A stretch of 64,000 bases of DNA from Fundidesulfovibrio putealis DSM 16056 (lineage in GTDB: Bacteria > Desulfobacterota > Desulfovibrionia > Desulfovibrionales > Desulfovibrionaceae). The translations under genes and the position numbers were made by a program. The notes beneath the pieces were generated by a model. It was not told the DNA's origin, did not search any database, and worked only from the letters and a program-made list of their open reading frames with translations. Within the stretch, counting starts at the first letter, position 1; each line of letters begins with the position of its first letter. Of the stretch, positions 978 through 64,000 are shown piece after piece. Where the stretch lies: positions 19,653 to 83,652 of the forward strand of contig NZ_KE386886.1 in the NCBI RefSeq assembly GCF_000429325.1. Reading direction: 5' to 3'.

Positions 978-1373
978 CTACTTGTCCACATCCTGCTGGA
1001 TGGATTTCAGCATCTCCTCCACCTTGGCCAGGCGCTCCTGGTACGACGCGTCCAGCTGGCCCTTGAGCATGCCCACCTTGTGGGTCACATCGCCCAACGT
1101 GTTGGACACGATGACCTTCTGGGCCATGGCCTTCGGCGCGTTCATGGCCTCCACGGCCTTGGCCTCAGCGGCGGTGATGCGCGCCTCATAGGCATTCATC
1201 TTGGCCCCGAACTTGGCCTCCACCGCAAAATACACGCCCGCAGCGGCCAAAATGGCCACCAGAGCCAGCATGATTCCCATGGTCGAAGCGGAACGACCCG
1301 GTCCCTGGGGCTCAGTGCCCTCATCGCCCTGCATCTGCCTGATGGCATCCACACGTTTCTCAAGTCCAAGCAT
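978..1373 (-). CDS. Small single-pass membrane protein with coiled coil, unknown function
   Basis: 131 residues from ATG 1373, chosen because GGAGG lies 6 bases upstream; a longer frame reaches 1439 but adds 22 residues without a ribosome site. The layout is a short cytoplasmic N-terminus (MLGLEKRVDAIRQ), a Pro/Gly/Ser linker, and one transmembrane helix around residues 32-50 (MGIMLALVAILAAAGVYF). An Ala/Glu/Lys-rich segment follows, predicted to be helical and probably a coiled coil, ending in Asp-Lys. I do not recognise a family. It lies 62 bases after the PFK-2-like gene and may be its last co-transcribed member; the terminator at 904-940 follows it. Confidence 0.65.
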   Translation of the reverse strand: MLGLEKRVDAIRQMQGDEGTEPQGPGRSASTMGIMLALVAILAAAGVYFAVEAKFGAKMNAYEARITAAEAKAVEAMNAPKAMAQKVIVSNTLGDVTHKVGMLKGQLDASYQERLAKVEEMLKSIQQDVDK

Positions 1374-1435: not shown

Positions 1436-2656
1436 TCAACCCATGAATTTGACCAGCTCGAAAACTTTGCGTGAATGCGTGGAAACAATGTGGAAATAGC
1501 GGTCCTGGGGGATGTAGATGTACGGGACATCCTCGGTGCGCCGGTACAGGAAGTGTGAGAGGATCATCCGGTTGACGGCCTGATGGCCCACGATGAGGAT
1601 ATGCTCGGCGTTGCCGGAAAGGTACAGGGCCTTCTTGACGCCCCGCTCCACGCGCTCCTTGAGGGTGCCGTAGCCTTCGCCTCCGGGATAGACGTAATTA
1701 TACTTGTCGCGGGTGCGGGCTTCGTGCACCTGGGGCATGTCCTGGGCGATGCGGTCGTAGGTCATGCCTTCGCAGACGCCCGCGTCGATCTCATCGAACT
1801 CGGCCAGCTGGATCACGCGGCAGTCGGTGCGCCCGTCGCAGATCATGGAGGCCATCTGCTGGGTGCGTTTTTTGGTGCTGGTGAACACGTAAGGCAGCGG
1901 CGTCTCGCGGAAATGCCAGGCCAGGGACTGGGCCTGAACCAGCCCGCGCGCCGTGAGCTCCGAGTCGCCGCCGATGCGCATCTCCAGGTTGAAGGCCGTC
2001 TCGCCGTGGCGCACCACGTAGAGGTTGCGCACCCAGTCCGACACCAGCAGATCCCGCAGGATTCGGTAGTGCGGCAGCACGCCCTGCACGCGCTCGCGCT
2101 CGATGCGGTTGTGCAGCGTATCCAGCACCACGAAGTTCTCTTCGTCTCCAAGCGGCTGGTAGATGCGCTCGTAGTAGCGGATACGCTCCCGGAAGCTCTC
2201 TTGTGCGGCCTCGCGGGTCATGTGCGCGAAGTCCGGCATGGCGGCCTTGCGGCTGATGCTGGCTTCCACCAGCTCCGGGTCCGGATTGACGCACTCCACG
2301 AAGAAGACCGGATAATCGCGCAGGCTTTCCTTTATGGTCTGGCGACGCTTGCGCGAGACGTTGGTGGCGTCCAGCACGGCCACGTCGCCCTTGCCGGAAA
2401 GATACGTGGCCGCCCGCTCCAGGTTGATGCGCGCGATCTTCTCACGGATGGCCACCCCCTGCTCGTACTCGGGAGCGTAGAAATCGGAACAGGTGGTGTC
2501 GCTGTCCCGGCAGACCTCGCGGCGCACGTCGCCGTTGTTGAAAACTTCCACCGCCACGCCCTCCGCGCCCAGGCACTGCCTGAGCTTGGAGGAGACCGTC
2601 GACTTGCCCGACGCGGGCAACCCCACCATGGCGATGACGAGTTTTCTCTTGTCCAT
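1436..2656 (-). CDS. Bifunctional 6-phosphofructo-2-kinase / fructose-2,6-bisphosphatase-like protein
   Basis: 406 residues with two domains in the order of eukaryotic PFKFB enzymes. The N-terminal kinase carries Walker A GLPASGKST (12-20), followed by the family-typical FNNGDVRR (39-46) and VLDATNVSRKRR (94-105). The C-terminal histidine-phosphatase domain has RHGE (216-219, phospho-acceptor His217), RIGGDS (227-232), EIDAGVCEGMTY (289-300) and GHQAVNR (His358). These blocks are almost those of animal fructose-2,6-bisphosphatase. The known family makes and breaks fructose 2,6-bisphosphate, which controls phosphofructokinase and fructose-1,6-bisphosphatase; whether this bacterial protein does so is inference. 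It starts 3 bases after the cysE stop, so it is probably the distal gene of the cysteine operon. The eukaryotic N-terminal regulatory extension is absent. Confidence 0.85.
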   Translation of the reverse strand: MDKRKLVIAMVGLPASGKSTVSSKLRQCLGAEGVAVEVFNNGDVRREVCRDSDTTCSDFYAPEYEQGVAIREKIARINLERAATYLSGKGDVAVLDATNVSRKRRQTIKESLRDYPVFFVECVNPDPELVEASISRKAAMPDFAHMTREAAQESFRERIRYYERIYQPLGDEENFVVLDTLHNRIERERVQGVLPHYRILRDLLVSDWVRNLYVVRHGETAFNLEMRIGGDSELTARGLVQAQSLAWHFRETPLPYVFTSTKKRTQQMASMICDGRTDCRVIQLAEFDEIDAGVCEGMTYDRIAQDMPQVHEARTRDKYNYVYPGGEGYGTLKERVERGVKKALYLSGNAEHILIVGHQAVNRMILSHFLYRRTEDVPYIYIPQDRYFHIVSTHSRKVFELVKFMG

Positions 2657-2659
2657 GCG

Positions 2660-3589
2660 CTATCCGCCGTTTTCCGCAGGGTTGGCCTTGAGCACCTTGG
2701 CCCCGGCAGCCACGTCAGACGTCACCCACACGTTCGCGCCGATCACCGCGCCCTTGCCCACTGTGATGCGGCCCAGCACCGTGGCCCCGGAATAGATGGT
2801 CACGTCGTCCTCCACGATGGGATGGCGGGCCAGACCCTTCACCGGGTTGCCGTTGGCGTCCTTGGGGAAGCTCTTGGCCCCGAGCGTCACGCCCTGGTAG
2901 AGGCGCACGTTATCGCCGATGATGCAGGTCTCGCCGATCACCACGCCGGTGCCGTGGTCGATGAAGAACCCTTTGCCGATCTGCGCGCCGGGGTGGATGT
3001 CTATGCCGGTGCGGGCGTGGGCCATCTCCGTTATTATGCGCGGGATGATGTCCACCCCGAGCTTGTGCAGCTCATGCGCGATGCGCTGGTGGATCAGCGC
3101 CGTTATGCTCGGGTACGAAAAGATGGTCTCGCCGGGGCTTTTGGCCGCCGGGTCGCCGTCGAAGGCGGCCTGCACGTCCAGCACCAGCTTCTCGCGGATT
3201 CCGGGCACGGAGCGCAGGAAGGCCGTGGCCTTGTCCATGGCCTGGTCCTCGCATCCGGTGCAGGCGCGGTTCTCGCCCAGGCACACGAAGCAGAAGCCGC
3301 GCTTGACCTGGTCGGCCAGCTTGCGGAACACCACGTCCAGGTGCGCCCCGGTGTGGTAGGCCAGCGTGTCCGGCGTCACTTCCGAATCGCCGTAGTAGCC
3401 CGGAAAAAGGACGGCCTTCAGCCGCTCCACCACTTCGGTGAGCGCCTCGATGGACGGCATGGGCGAATCCGTGAGCTTGCGGCAGGCGAACGCCTGATAC
3501 GACGAGGGCGCGCACAGCTTGCCCACAACATCCTCGATTACGTCCCGTTCAGGGCTCAGACTGGCCAGCACATGGCGTTCGTGCTTCAC
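2660..3589 (-). CDS. cysE: Serine O-acetyltransferase
   Basis: 309 residues from GTG 3589. This start overlaps the cysK stop in a GTGA junction and has GGAGG 7 bases upstream; the frame itself extends to 3649. The enzyme transfers acetyl from acetyl-CoA to L-serine, the first step of cysteine synthesis. The N-terminal half is helical. The C-terminal half is a left-handed beta-helix of hexapeptide repeats ([19 protein letters not shown], then [19 protein letters not shown]), with the catalytic-type His in FIDHGTG. It is longer than E. coli CysE and carries an insert with four Cys residues ([14 protein letters not shown]), which could bind metal; I do not know its role. The C-terminus ends in Asn-Gly-Gly rather than the Ile that docks into CysK, so complex formation is uncertain. 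Confidence 0.9.
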
Positions 3590-4524
3590 TTCGTTTCCTC
3601 CATGCCTGTAAACAGGGCGGTGCTCAGATAGCGCTCGCCCGTGTCGCACACAATGAATACGATCATTTTTCCCTTGTTTTCAGGTCGCCTGCCCAGCTCC
3701 ACCGCCGCGTGGCAGATGGCTCCCGAGGAGATGCCGCACAGGATGCCCTCCTCTTGCAGCATGCGCCGGGCCATTCCAATGGCCTGATCGTTGGTGACGC
3801 GGAACACCTCGTCGATCAGGTCCACCTCGAGCACCTCGGGCACGAAGCCCGCGCCGATGCCCTGGATCATGTGCGGGCCTGCCTCGCCGCCGGACAGCAC
3901 GGGCGAGGCGTCCGGCTCCACGGCCACTGCCTTGAGCTCCGGCTTCCTGCCCTTGAGCACCTGGGCCACGCCGGTGAGCGTGCCGCCCGTGCCCACGCCA
4001 GCCACGAAAATATCCACCTTGCCGTCGGTGTCGTGCCAGATCTCCTCGGCCGTGGTCAGGCGGTGGGCCTCCGGGTTGGCCGGGTTGGCGAACTGCATGG
4101 GCATGAAGGCCTTGGGCAGCTCCGCCACCAGCTCACGGGCCTTCTCGATGGCGCCCCTCATGCCCTTTGAAGCCTCCGTCAGCACCAGCTGCGCGCCAAA
4201 CCCCTTGAGCAGCGTGCGCCGCTCGATGCTCATGGACTCGGGCATGGTCAGCACCAGCTTGTAGCCGCGCACCGCGCACACGAAGGCCAGGCCGATTCCC
4301 GTGTTGCCGCTGGTGGGCTCCACGATAACCGTGTCGTGGTCCACGAGCCCCCGGCGCTCCGCGTCCAGGATCATGTTGCCCGCGATGCGGTCCTTCACCG
4401 AGAAACACGGGTTGGCGGACTCCAGCTTGGCCACCAGCTGCACATCCAGACCAGCGCCTATACGATTCAGCCGTACCAGGGGCGTGCCGCCCACCAGTTC
4501 CAGCATGTTGGAAGCTATTTTCAT
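3586..4524 (-). CDS. cysK: Cysteine synthase A (O-acetylserine sulfhydrylase)
   Basis: 312 residues, the normal length for the family. This fold-type-II PLP enzyme converts O-acetylserine and sulfide to cysteine. The PLP lysine is Lys44 in SVKDR. The substrate loop TSGNTG, the phosphate-binding GTGGT and the C-terminal ISSGA serine contact are all present. The start overlaps the DUF1835 stop by four bases (ATGA at 4521-4524), and its own stop overlaps the cysE start, so the three genes are translationally coupled. In a sulfide-producing anaerobe this would be the direct route from sulfide to cysteine. The neighbouring nifS would then use that cysteine as a sulfur donor. Confidence 0.95.
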
Positions 4525-5462
4525 TCTATCACTCCAGGCCCGTCCAGCCGGGTCAGCGTTTCACTGTCGGGTACGTAGCGCCAGTCGTGAGAGCCATCAA
4601 GACGGACGCCGCCTATCCAACGCCCTTGGCCGCCAGCGCGCATCCAATCCGATTGACCGTTCAGCGTTCTCTCGCCGGCGCTGGTCAGCCGGACGGTCCG
4701 CTCCGGAAAAGTTCCTTCGCCCCCTGCAAGCAGCGGCTCGGGGCCGGACATGAGCCGCGAAGCCACCAGCCAGCACGGCCAGTCGCCGAAGAAGGGGCGC
4801 TCCTCCTGCCGGGACACCGCCTTGAACAGTTCCGCACCGCTCACGGCCCCGGACGAGGCCGCCTGGAGCATGGTCCGCTCCAGGCGCGACAAGCCGTCTC
4901 GCATTCCCGGATATTCCTCAAGGAGCCTGCCCAGGGCCTGTCCGGCGAAGGGCAGACCCGCGACACCCTTGGCCGCGACACGCGCAAGACCGGACGGATC
5001 GGGCGAGCAGAAAGCCACCCACGCCTCGTGCGCCGAACGCATGGTTTGGGCGCTTACGGGCGCAAGCCCCGCACGCAGGTCGTCCGCGCCAAGTCCGGAA
5101 AACCCCGCGCCACCGAACAGCTGTACACGCTCAGGCGCAGTGCCGAGTCCATAAAGCCTCGACAGCACCTCCAGCAGCTGCAACTGGTCGTACAGGTCTG
5201 CCTCGAACCACAGCGCAGCACCCTGTTCCCCCGATTCCTCAAGCAGGCGGTCGCGCTCGTCCAGCGACTCAAGCACGTCGCCGTAAGCTCCCCAGCCGCA
5301 GGAGGCGATGAAGTCCGCCCTAATCTCGCGCATCTCGCGCCCGGTGACGTCCGAGGGCACCGGGCCTTCGTGCAGCACGTCCCGCCAGGGCAGCGCTGCA
5401 TCCGCCACACCCGCACGCCTGAGTTCATCCGCCGCGAAGTCGCCGCAGGTTATGTGCAGCAT
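4521..5462 (-). CDS. DUF1835 domain-containing protein
   Basis: 313 residues. The N-terminus carries the signature I associate with DUF1835: LHITCGD at residues 2-8, then [13 protein letters not shown] around 24-36. A helical middle and C-terminal region rich in Arg and Leu follows, with no catalytic motif I can name. There is no signal peptide or membrane helix, so it is cytoplasmic. It overlaps cysK by four bases and follows the DUF1847 gene after nine bases, so it belongs to the cysteine operon. The family has no established biochemical function that I know of, and the operon position alone does not define one. Confidence 0.75.
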
Positions 5463-24389: not shown

Positions 24390-25010
24390 CTATCCCAGCC
24401 AGGCGGCGAACCGCTCCAGCACAGCGTCCCGCATGGCGTCCACGCTTAAGCTCGCGGCGTCCAGCACCAGCTCGGCCTGGGGGTCTTCCTCGAAGGGGAC
24501 GTCCACGCCGATGACCTGCCCGAGACCCTCGAACTTCTGTCCCGTGGCTTTTCGCTTCATGGCCTTGGCGTAGAGCCCGGCCATGACCGTGCCGTCGGGA
24601 CGGGCGCTCTCGCGCTTCATTGCGGTGGTGACGCCGCAGCGCAGGTGCACCTCGGCGAAGCGCTCGATGATGCCGCGGGCGTAGCGCCGCATGGAAAGCT
24701 GCGACCCGGAGCCGTCCATGAGCACCACCCTGCCCTCCCGCACAAGCACGGCGGCCTCGTCGGCGAACATCCGGTAGGCCTCGGCGCGTTCCCTGGCGGT
24801 GTAGATGGGACGCGGGGTGTAGTGCTTGCGGCGGTCGTCCATGCGCAGGTGCACCACGTCCAGCCCGCGCGTCTTCAGCACTTCCAGCACCGCGCCCGCC
24901 ACGGTGGATTTGCCCGCGCCGGGCAGGCCGGTGAACCACAGGGCAGCCCCCGCCTTTCCGGCTTCAGGCTCGTCGTCGTCTTCCAACGCGGTATTTCCAT
25001 CAATCTGCAT
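24390..25010 (-). CDS. Adenylylsulfate-kinase-like P-loop kinase
   Basis: 206 residues from ATG 25010; the frame runs to 25130 through a repeat and is not coding there. After an acidic N-terminus (EDDDEPEAG), Walker A is GLPGAGKST. The next blocks (LRMDDRRKHY, then AEAYRMFADEAAVLVREG, then EVHLRCGVTTAMKRES) follow the layout of APS kinase (CysC), but the canonical DGDNVR is replaced by MDDRR. The closest label is APS kinase, which makes PAPS; a related small-molecule kinase is also possible. The gene follows the aminoglycoside-phosphotransferase-like gene with a repeat between them. The Shine-Dalgarno is weak. Confidence 0.7.
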   Translation of the reverse strand: MQIDGNTALEDDDEPEAGKAGAALWFTGLPGAGKSTVAGAVLEVLKTRGLDVVHLRMDDRRKHYTPRPIYTARERAEAYRMFADEAAVLVREGRVVLMDGSGSQLSMRRYARGIIERFAEVHLRCGVTTAMKRESARPDGTVMAGLYAKAMKRKATGQKFEGLGQVIGVDVPFEEDPQAELVLDAASLSVDAMRDAVLERFAAWLG

Positions 25011-25049
25011 GATACTACCATGTTCCCATTCTATCCCGCGAAGCCCATT

Positions 25050-25124
25050 GAGGGTCCAGGGGGATGATCCCCCTGGCGGGAGAGTCCAGAGAGGGCGGAG
25101 CCCTCTTTGGCCGCCGGAGGCATT
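25050..25124. repeat. Palindromic intergenic repeat, copy C (composite)
   Basis: Composite element: GAGGGTCC plus the CCAGGGGGA/TCCCCCTGG palindrome (25050-25076, inverse of copy A), then an AGAGGGC/GCCCTCT hairpin, then GGCCGCCGGAGGCATT (25109-25124), identical to 6502-6517. It fills nearly the whole gap between the two kinase genes. Confidence 0.72.
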
Positions 25125-25137
25125 GTCCACGGGTCAA

Positions 25138-26367
25138 CTAATCCAAATACTTGTTAATCCCCCGCCAGTCGAACTTTTCATCCTCCAGTACCCGCTCAAG
25201 GAAACGCAGAAGACCCTCCCGCACCGGCTCGGGGTGGTGCGGATACCACTGGGGCGAGGCGATCACCAGCCCGCGAAACATGTAGAAGGGCGCGATGACC
25301 TCCAGGATTTCCTCGTCGCCGGTGCGCTCCAGATACTCTTCCCAGAATGACAGATAGAGCTTCTCGAACGCGCCTTTGAGCCTGGGCTTTCCCAACTGCC
25401 CGTAGAGCCCGAAGAGCACGAAGTTGAGGCTCATGGTGGCCACGTCGTCGGCGGGTTCCCCGTATTCGCCCCGGCTGCGGTCCAGCACGGAGAACTCGTA
25501 ACGGCCGCCCTCCTCGCGCACCAGGGTGTTCCAGGGGTGGAAGTCGCCGTGCACCACGCTCAGGCGGTGGGTGTAGCGGCGCAGCTTCCAGCGCCAGTCG
25601 ATGATGCGCTTCTCCAGGGCCTGGAAGCGCTCGGGGGGAAATTTGTCGTAGGGGTAGGGATAGGCGTCCACCAGCCCGAAGATGCACTCGGAGGCTCCGA
25701 TCAGGTCGCGCACGCGGCGCAGGTAGAGGTCTGGGTCTTCGTATTTGGCCGAGTGGATTTCGGCGAGCCAGGCGGCGAAGCCGCGCGACAGGTCGATGTC
25801 GGCCTGGGTGGCCGCCGAAGCGCCCTCGGGAGCCCCGGAAGCGACTCCCGCTCCAGCACCCTCAGCCGAGCCATCGGAGACTGGAGCGCCGCCTGCGGCC
25901 TGGGCGTTCAAGGCAGCCTCGTCCCTGCCGATGCGCTCCAGGTGCAGGTAATAGTCCTCGCCGTCCACCAGTTCTGTCAGGCTGAAGAACTCCTTGGGCT
26001 CCACCACGGCCACCATCTGGTCGCGCGCGTCGAAATAGCCGAGCCCCAGGGGCTTGGCGTGCCGGGCTAGGCGGCCCGAGGTCTCGTGCTGGAACATGAG
26101 GATGGCGGCGCGGTCCCAGTAGAACTGATGGCCGTACTTGTCGCCGCGCATGATGGACAACACGGCGGACTGGAGCTTTCCGCCCACGGAGTACTCCACG
26201 CGAAGGGGCTTTCCGTAGCCGAACTCCTTCATGCCCTGCACGCCGTGCGAGCCGATCTCCCCCAGCCAGGAGATCCTGGCGGTGTTGCCGTAGAGTTGCG
26301 TGAGATACGCCTGGATCTTCTCGGAACTTACGCGAAGCGGGGTCTTCTCTTCGGTGCCGGTGCGCAT
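25138..26367 (-). CDS. Aminoglycoside-phosphotransferase (APH) family kinase
   Basis: 409 residues from ATG 26367 with GGAGG upstream. The protein-kinase-like fold is recognised from the catalytic loop VVHGDFHPWNTL (His-Gly-Asp, Asn) and the metal-binding LDRSRGEYGEPADD, which replaces the usual IDFxxxxxGxxxxD. An Ala/Gly-rich insert around residues 158-187 looks like a linker. Despite the name, many APH-fold proteins act on sugars, choline or homoserine, so antibiotic resistance should not be assumed. It follows the hemerythrin gene after 21 bases and precedes the APS-kinase-like gene. In other bacteria APH and P-loop kinase domains occur fused in one protein, so the pairing may be functional. 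Confidence 0.75.
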   Translation of the reverse strand: MRTGTEEKTPLRVSSEKIQAYLTQLYGNTARISWLGEIGSHGVQGMKEFGYGKPLRVEYSVGGKLQSAVLSIMRGDKYGHQFYWDRAAILMFQHETSGRLARHAKPLGLGYFDARDQMVAVVEPKEFFSLTELVDGEDYYLHLERIGRDEAALNAQAAGGAPVSDGSAEGAGAGVASGAPEGASAATQADIDLSRGFAAWLAEIHSAKYEDPDLYLRRVRDLIGASECIFGLVDAYPYPYDKFPPERFQALEKRIIDWRWKLRRYTHRLSVVHGDFHPWNTLVREEGGRYEFSVLDRSRGEYGEPADDVATMSLNFVLFGLYGQLGKPRLKGAFEKLYLSFWEEYLERTGDEEILEVIAPFYMFRGLVIASPQWYPHHPEPVREGLLRFLERVLEDEKFDWRGINKYLD

Positions 26368-62320: not shown

Positions 62321-62911
62321 TCACAGGGTCTGGTTCCAGGCTTCGATCCGCAGGCAGCCGTCTCGTGCGCGCAGGACATGCAGGGCGCGCGGCGCCAGGA
62401 TTTTGGGCTCGCAGGGCAGGTAGTCGCGCCCTTTGAGGGCGTAGAGCACCGCGCGCAGAACGCCCTCGTGGGTCACGACCAGCACGGACTCCCCGACGTG
62501 GCGCGCGGCTATGTCCATCAGGCAGTTCCAGGCGCGCTCCAGCACGGCCCTGCGGTCCTCGCCGCCGGGAGGGGTGAAGGCCCAGCCCAGGGCCTCCTGC
62601 GGTGCCAGGAGTCCCTGTTCGCGGAGATCGGCCACGGTGCGCCCGGTCCACTCTCCGAAGGCCTGCTCGCGAAGATCCGGCAGGGGCACGGGACCTAGCC
62701 CCAGCGGATCGCCCACAATGCGCGCTGTGTGCATGGCCCGTCCCAGCGGGCTTGAATACAGTGCGGAAAAATTGAACGGAGCAAGCGTCCCGGCCCAGGA
62801 GCGCGCCGCTTCCAACCCGTCTGGCGTCAGCGGCGAATCCTCATGCCCCTGGATGCGCCCGGCGGCGTTCCACTCGGTGCGGGCGTGCCGGATGAGCGCC
62901 AGGAGCGTCAC
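62321..62911 (-). CDS. Histidine phosphatase family protein
   Basis: 196 residues from GTG 62911, which overlaps the GT4 stop as GTGA. The phosphoglycerate-mutase-like RHARTEWN at the N-terminus carries the catalytic His; this is the small 'RHG/RHA' phosphatase form. LYSSPLGRAMHTA, FGEWTGRTVADL and VTHEGVLRAVL (second His) are conserved. Possible roles are dephosphorylating a sugar phosphate, a cobalamin intermediate (CobC-like) or a glycan precursor; the neighbours favour the last. A 163-base gap separates it from the glycosyltransferase downstream. Confidence 0.85.
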   Translation of the reverse strand: MTLLALIRHARTEWNAAGRIQGHEDSPLTPDGLEAARSWAGTLAPFNFSALYSSPLGRAMHTARIVGDPLGLGPVPLPDLREQAFGEWTGRTVADLREQGLLAPQEALGWAFTPPGGEDRRAVLERAWNCLMDIAARHVGESVLVVTHEGVLRAVLYALKGRDYLPCEPKILAPRALHVLRARDGCLRIEAWNQTL

Positions 62912-64000
62912 GCGTGAGCCCCGGCCAGACGCCTCAGATGCAGGTCCACCTGCATGAAGTTGACCGCTGCGTCGTGGCGGGCGCGCACGTTCTGCATGGC
63001 CGCGCGGCCCATGGCCCTGCGCCGCTCCGGATCGTCCAGAAGGGAGACCACGGCGGCGCGGTAGGCGCTCACGTCCAGGAACGGGGTCAGGATGCCGGTT
63101 TCGCCCTGGCGCATCACTTCGGGGATGCCGCCGTTGTCGAAGGCGACGACGGGCAACCCGGCTGCCTGGGCCTCCAGGTAGACCATGCCCAGGCTCTCGC
63201 GGATGCCGGGGAAGGCGAACAGGTCGGCTGCGGAGTACACCTCGAAGAGCTTCTCGCGCGGCACCTGCCCCAGGAAGCGGCAGCGCCCGGGCAGGTCCTC
63301 CCGCGCGAGTTTTTCCAGTTCCTGGCGGGTTTCGCCGTCGCCAGCCAGCACCAGCTCGAAATCGCGCCGCAACCCGGACAGGCTGGCCAGCAGGAAGCGC
63401 AGCCCCTGGGTCTTCACGTCGTCGCGGAACATGGCCACGGACAGCACCACGGGGCGATCCCCCACGCCCCACTCGGCCCGCAGGCGCGCCCTGGCCTGCG
63501 CGTTAAAAGCGAACGCGTCGGGATCAATGCCCGGAGGCACGTAGCACAGGCGGTCATCAGGCAGCAGACGGCGCAGGTTCTCCATGTCTTCCAGCCGGTT
63601 GGAGAAGACCATGTCGGCGGCCAGCAGGCTTCGCCGGTTCAGCTCGAACCCCAGGCGGGTGGCCAGACTCTTGCGCCTCTTGGTGGAATAGATGCCCTGG
63701 AAGATGGCGTAGGGCACGCCCAGGGTCCTGGCGGCGTAGGGGCCGATGACGTCCGGGGACTTGTAGTAGGCGTGATGGGTGAGCCACACATCCGGGCGAA
63801 CCCGCCAGCCGTGGGCGGCCCGGAAGGCCTCGAACGCAGCCACCGGCCACATGTACGGGCGAGAGGCCAGATTGCGGGCGCGAAACCGGCTGGGGATGGT
63901 TATCTCATGCCCCTGACCGCGCAGAAAGCGCGTCAGCCCGAGCGCGGTGGTCAGGTCGCCGCTGGGACGCGGGTGATCCAGGGGCTTGAACGGGGCGTAA
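62908..64000 (-). CDS. Glycosyltransferase family 4 protein (start outside window)
   Basis: The frame is open from 62908 to the window edge (364 residues seen). At the edge it reads YAPFKPLDHPRPSGDLTTAL, which in relatives begins about six residues after the start, so it is nearly complete. The GT-B fold is recognised from PPGIDPDAFAFN (donor sugar loop), VLAGDGETRQEL, and the EX7E motif in ESLGMVYLEAQAAGLPVVA (nucleophile-side Glu residues). It transfers a sugar from a nucleotide donor, probably in surface polysaccharide or lipopolysaccharide synthesis. It is translationally coupled to the histidine phosphatase. Confidence 0.88.
   Translation of the reverse strand, partial: YAPFKPLDHPRPSGDLTTALGLTRFLRGQGHEITIPSRFRARNLASRPYMWPVAAFEAFRAAHGWRVRPDVWLTHHAYYKSPDVIGPYAARTLGVPYAIFQGIYSTKRRKSLATRLGFELNRRSLLAADMVFSNRLEDMENLRRLLPDDRLCYVPPGIDPDAFAFNAQARARLRAEWGVGDRPVVLSVAMFRDDVKTQGLRFLLASLSGLRRDFELVLAGDGETRQELEKLAREDLPGRCRFLGQVPREKLFEVYSAADLFAFPGIRESLGMVYLEAQAAGLPVVAFDNGGIPEVMRQGETGILTPFLDVSAYRAAVVSLLDDPERRRAMGRAAMQNVRARHDAAVNFMQVDLHLRRLAGAHA

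Follow-up and report, generated by a model that had tools for sequence, protein, structure and literature searches.

The gene at positions 1436..2656 (minus strand) of the window, i.e., the whole stretch of 64,000 nucleotides of DNA analyzed here from the sulfate-reducing bacterium Fundidesulfovibrio putealis DSM 16056, very likely encodes a core-only, bacterial form of PFK-2/FBPase-2, as judged from its sequence and from a predicted structure. In animals, this enzyme both synthesizes and degrades fructose 2,6-bisphosphate (F2,6BP), a sugar signal. The explanation that we favor, and consider probable, is that this core-only enzyme sets the level of F2,6BP and in this way steers the choice between glycolysis and gluconeogenesis. 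The interest of the case lies in the bacterial circuit that is thereby predicted, in the linkage of the gene to a class I fructose-1,6-bisphosphatase (FBPase) in part of the phylum, and in the existence of a second subfamily of the enzyme.

Domain organization and catalytic residues

The protein joins in a single chain an N-terminal 6PF2K domain to a C-terminal histidine phosphatase domain, with Pfam scores of 142 bits (cut-off 27) and 128 bits (His_Phos_1, cut-off 21.7), respectively. The gene and the features that it carries are the following:

1436..2656, minus strand: PFK-2/FBPase-2 homologue, 406 aa; ATG at 2656, stop at 1436-1438
2135..2650, minus strand, residues 3-174: 6-phosphofructo-2-kinase (6PF2K) domain; Pfam PF01591, E 2.1e-41
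1460..2023, minus strand, residues 212-399: fructose-2,6-bisphosphatase (His_Phos_1) domain; Pfam PF00300, E 3.5e-37
2600..2623, minus strand, residues 12-19: Walker A GLPASGKS; sequence motif
2360..2371, minus strand, residues 96-99: DATN, Walker B Asp and fructose-6-phosphate (F6P) contacts; alignment
2000..2011, minus strand, residues 216-219: RHGE, phosphatase catalytic His217; alignment
1769..1792, minus strand, residues 289-296: EIDAGVCE, phosphatase acid Glu289; alignment
1577..1588, minus strand, residues 357-360: GHQA, second catalytic His358; alignment

All of the motifs that the original prediction had quoted (GLPASGKST at residues 12-20, RHGE, RIGGDS at residues 227-232, EIDAGVCE and GHQA) were found in the ORF translation. 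In most bacterial relatives the Walker A motif reads GLPARGK, as it does in human. The best solved relatives were human PFKFB2, PFKFB1 and PFKFB3, with residues 6-391 aligned (E to 1.8e-61), so that the alignment with human PFKFB1-3 runs end to end, at about 35-37% identity over the core.

The contacts of the F6P pocket of PFKFB3 include R74, R75, R98, D124, T126, R132, R189 and Y193 (PMC3177832), and these are identical in the window protein, where they correspond to R45, R46, R71, D96, T98, R104, R158 and Y162, respectively. The Walker A lysine (K18) is also identical to that at the PFKFB3 position, and a Ser is found at the position of PFKFB3 T48. On the phosphatase side, every FBPase-2 residue is present (R216, H217, E219, N223, R264, E289, Y300, R314, K318, Y329, H358, Q359 and R363); we take the roles of these residues, i.e., the catalytic His/Glu/His and the 6-phosphate-binding Arg/Lys/Tyr, to be those of rat liver FBPase-2. 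When 65 bacterial sequences were compared, the residues of the F6P pocket, as well as R216, H217, N223, R264, E289, R314, K318, Y329, H358 and R363, were invariant or at least 90% conserved.

The window protein is therefore like eukaryotic PFKFB1-4 in its domain order, both catalytic sets, the F6P pocket, the predicted folds and the 35-37% core identity, and it differs from them at its ends. Walker A begins at residue 42 in PFKFB3 and at residue 12 in the window protein, and the alignment starts at residues 36 and 6, respectively. Animal isoforms carry an N-terminal extension (30-odd residues in PFKFB3) and a regulatory C-terminal tail, whereas the window protein has neither, which makes regulation of the mammalian type unlikely. 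The C-terminal motif of the bacterial form, IPQxxYFHI, is also unlike that of eukaryotic PFKFB; in addition, the bacterial form falls in a separate bacterial clade and its domain packing is possibly different.

Family placement and predicted structure

The phosphatase domain was placed by means of profiles and a tree with an outgroup, and the kinase domain was separated from P-loop proteins by profile scores; the eukaryotic sequences used in these comparisons were animal only, taken from the PDB. A bacterial kinase-domain profile gave 135-142 bits with human PFKFB and at most 14 bits with those P-loop proteins of the genome that were scored. Hence, the protein does not group with general P-loop kinases, and that identity was ruled out on domain and profile scores. 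Similarly, the bacterial phosphatase-domain profile gave 146-157 bits with human PFKFB and no more than 101 bits with other histidine phosphatases of the order. In the phosphatase-domain tree, the bacterial and human PFKFB sequences formed one clade (support 100/100), apart from the CobC/PGM-type proteins, although with long branches. In a separate tree, the stem between the bacterial clade and animal PFKFB measured 2.68 changes per column.

CobC and the related histidine phosphatases share with the window protein the phosphatase fold and the RHG motif, but they are devoid of a kinase domain and form a separate clade, and the window protein scores below their NCBIfam cut-offs. Its identity as an alpha-ribazole phosphatase (CobC) was rejected on these grounds (98 bits, versus an equivalog cut-off of 162.9). 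An adenylyl-sulfate (APS) kinase was also discarded, with an NCBIfam score of 22.8 bits versus a cut-off of 138.7 that came from the Walker region only, and a Pfam match confined to residues 6-54. None of the NCBIfam equivalog models covers the window protein.

The AlphaFold model of the protein was of high confidence (pLDDT 91.6, pTM 0.86) and was compared with solved structures. With Foldseek, the top 26 matches were all PFKFB, and VIA-align gave Z values of 31-33 against PFKFB. The rmsd was about 16 A over the whole chain and about 2 A over the phosphatase domain alone, and this gap suggests either that the predicted domain packing is unlike that of PFKFB or that the monomer arrangement of the model is unreliable. 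The domains, the pocket and catalytic residues, the AlphaFold match, the profile scores and the trees all agree, and on these the two-domain, bifunctional assignment of the original prediction holds as the predicted identity of the protein.

No other 6PF2K gene was found in the whole genome (n = 1). The GC content of the gene at the three codon positions, 0.63/0.39/0.87, matches that of the adjacent cysE and cysK genes, which indicates an ordinary resident of the genome. A recent transfer from a eukaryote to this genome was excluded by the breadth of the bacterial clade, the close relatives within the genus and this normal codon composition.

Distribution among bacteria and linkage to class I FBPase

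Full bifunctional enzymes of this kind had been presumed to be rare in bacteria, and this view is not borne out, at least within this phylum. Full-length homologues, with 44-78% identity, were found in 90 of the 199 sampled genomes of the order; among 395 genomes from the phylum, 58 gave strong 6PF2K matches, and the gene was also detected in anammox planctomycetes. A GTDB scan yielded 382 relatives, the best 80 of which include Desulfovibrionales, Desulfobacterales, Syntrophaceae/Smithella and four anammox planctomycete MAGs. The sequences from the latter (L066, L075, L080 and L083) formed a single clade nested among Desulfobacterota (support 100), a position in the tree that is consistent with one lateral transfer as the likely event; the presence of the gene on these four contigs may instead be a binning artefact. 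The "Myxococcota" label that NCBI gives to MAGs in the trees titled "Deltaproteobacteria bacterium" is probably a naming artefact.

A second PFKFB subfamily was present in another class of Desulfobacterota (L132 and L174-L177, from genomes G543, G590, G594, G589 and G587). Its members are full-length and have the same two domains as the window protein, in the same order, and their motifs are more eukaryote-like (FNVGAYRRE, MPLDRII). In the phosphatase-domain tree, the phosphatase domain of this subfamily was sister to human PFKFB (95/89), a relation that bears on the origin of the eukaryotic fusion.

The neighborhood of the gene was then considered at other loci. In 21 loci of other Desulfobacterota, a class I FBPase, a classical target of F2,6BP, lies upstream on the same strand, 1.6-5.8 kb away (e.g., FBPase at L088:2014-3054, plus strand, and PFKFB at L088:6986-8197); the identity of this neighbor was checked with Pfam and NCBIfam on one representative of the 21. 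The PFKFB proteins of these loci are 60% to 97% identical (median 68%), and the genes that separate FBPase from PFKFB, on the opposite strand, are partly variable (Bax1-I, radical SAM, metallophosphatase and sometimes an M48 peptidase). No FBPase was found near the gene in the flanks examined within the window's own order. The linkage represents synteny retained in related lineages, and it is thus a functional hint rather than proof.

The upstream neighbor on the same strand is malQ in six loci, those of Halodesulfovibrio and of a Nitratidesulfovibrio relative among them, at a distance of 47-332 nt from the gene. A link to polyglucose storage was nevertheless rejected, since one genus (g3) is absent from the 114 genomes with GH77, yet most of its members carry the PFKFB gene. 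The g3 genomes gave weak glycogen-synthase-domain matches only, and another genus (g14) has both storage genes and no PFKFB. These two patterns indicate that storage and PFKFB are not associated, the adjacency to malQ notwithstanding.

Predicted function and alternative activities

Both activities, the existence of F2,6BP in this cell and its target are predicted here from the sequence. The N-terminal domain would use ATP to phosphorylate fructose 6-phosphate at C2, and the C-terminal domain would remove this C2 phosphate through a phospho-histidine at His217, so that the balance between kinase and phosphatase would determine the size of the F2,6BP pool. The most likely target would be class I FBPase and/or an ATP-type phosphofructokinase (PFK), and through it the direction of flux, glycolysis versus gluconeogenesis, would be set. 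With no regulatory tails, control would be exerted by metabolites or by expression. A regulatory role for the enzyme has, in our judgment, slightly better than an even chance. The genome has a class I FBPase and two PFKs, and the PFK examined is of the ATP-dependent type (NCBIfam); the PFK of this genome is a single unit, which we counted against the favored explanation. Almost every genome of the order has PFK and FBPase, whether or not it carries a PFKFB gene. Their presence thus does not track a target, and co-occurrence with either of them was discarded as uninformative evidence.

According to the passage of a 2022 paper (PMC9721465) that cites the review by Rider et al. (2004), no bacterium other than Desulfovibrio desulfuricans contains F2,6BP. 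This species belongs to the same order as the window genome, and the exception very probably concerns the same gene family. A 2026 preprint describes the control of PFK by F2,6BP as apparently eukaryote-specific (PMC12873801). Our literature search, in which subscription journals were thinly covered, found no paper testing a bacterial PFK-2/FBPase-2. We tentatively propose, with a little less than even confidence, a bacterial F2,6BP circuit across Desulfobacterota and anammox planctomycetes in which core-only PFK-2/FBPase-2 would set the level of F2,6BP, and F2,6BP would in turn regulate PFK or class I FBPase, the gene of which is linked to that of the enzyme in many of these bacteria. If this were true, the signal would have an earlier origin, or a wider distribution, than is assumed when it is regarded as specific to eukaryotes. 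The conserved and complete active site, together with the FBPase linkage in part of the phylum, makes the bacterial use of F2,6BP and its target directly testable.

Two other activities were weighed against the favored one. The same two folds might act on another phospho-sugar or on a nucleotide, in which case the protein would be a bacterial kinase/phosphatase switch on a different metabolite. The long stem that separates the bacterial clade from animals, the possible difference in domain packing, the absence of a covering NCBIfam equivalog and the fact that the literature search found no direct assay of the bacterial clade are all compatible with another substrate, but neither the F6P-pocket residues checked nor those of the FBPase-2 set differ from the human ones, and both groups are conserved across 65 divergent sequences, class I FBPase lies near the gene in 21 loci, and D. 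desulfuricans is cited, in the passage mentioned above, as containing F2,6BP. We consider this reading unlikely. The other activity, to which we assign the same low probability, is that one half of the protein is inactive in vivo, which would leave it with a single working activity, kinase or phosphatase, like yeast PFK26/FBP26. The yeast isoforms have each lost one activity via substitutions and deletions (PMC9721465), and the phosphatase motif is changed in a few bacterial relatives (e.g., RHSE in L051 and RHTE in L178). Such a loss is opposed by the two catalytic sets, which are complete in the window protein and conserved across the clade.

The cysE-cysK locus and other ORFs in the window

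On the minus strand, the gene order is cysK, cysE, the PFK-2/FBPase-2 gene and a small membrane-anchored ORF:

3586..4524, minus strand: cysK, cysteine synthase A; the TIGR01139 score exceeds the cut-off
2660..3589, minus strand: cysE/epsC-type serine acetyltransferase; likely GTG start at 3589, longest ORF starts at 3649
978..1373, minus strand: small membrane-anchored ORF downstream of the PFK-2/FBPase-2 gene; probable ATG at 1373, longest ORF 978-1439

If cysE does start at the GTG at 3589, its first 4 nt coincide with the end of cysK. The 3-base distance from cysE to the PFK-2/FBPase-2 gene noted originally is correct (TAG at 2660-2662, CGC, ATG). The small ORF at 978-1373 has no Pfam match, and a counterpart of it is present in L047, from the same genus as the window.

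From this position, a link between carbon flux and sulfur assimilation had been suggested, and the comparison of loci does not bear it out. Among about 100 loci, adjacency to cysE and cysK was observed only in the window genus (the window, L047, L052 and L053; four of four inspected), where the gene follows cysK-cysE, and in L035, from another genus of the same family, where the gene precedes them; the neighbors elsewhere are varied (TyrRS, malQ, peptidase U32, DsbD, malate synthase). That the gene serves to tie cysteine synthesis to carbon flux is very improbable: the shared strand, the 4-nt overlap, the 3-nt gap, the arrangement kept in four loci of the genus and the cysK-cysE pair that follows the gene in the distant L035 speak for it, but no further case was found in that set of loci. 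The position next to cysE and cysK probably reflects a lineage-specific event that put the gene into a housekeeping operon, from which it is transcribed, and not a functional partnership, and a switch in sugar metabolism is a better fit than a cysteine switch.

Other ORFs of the window were also noted. An ORF of 313 aa at 4521-5462 (minus strand), which shares 4 nt with the beginning of cysK, has no Pfam or NCBIfam match, and no equivalent of it was detected at the corresponding position of L047. At 62321-63472 (minus strand), a protein of 383 aa carries a histidine phosphatase domain at residues 191-381, with no Pfam match in its N-terminal half. Finally, an APS-kinase-like protein (62 bits) is encoded at 24390-25130 (minus strand), in a host that is a relative of sulfate reducers, and adjoins an ORF of the phosphotransferase family (APH) at 25138-26367.
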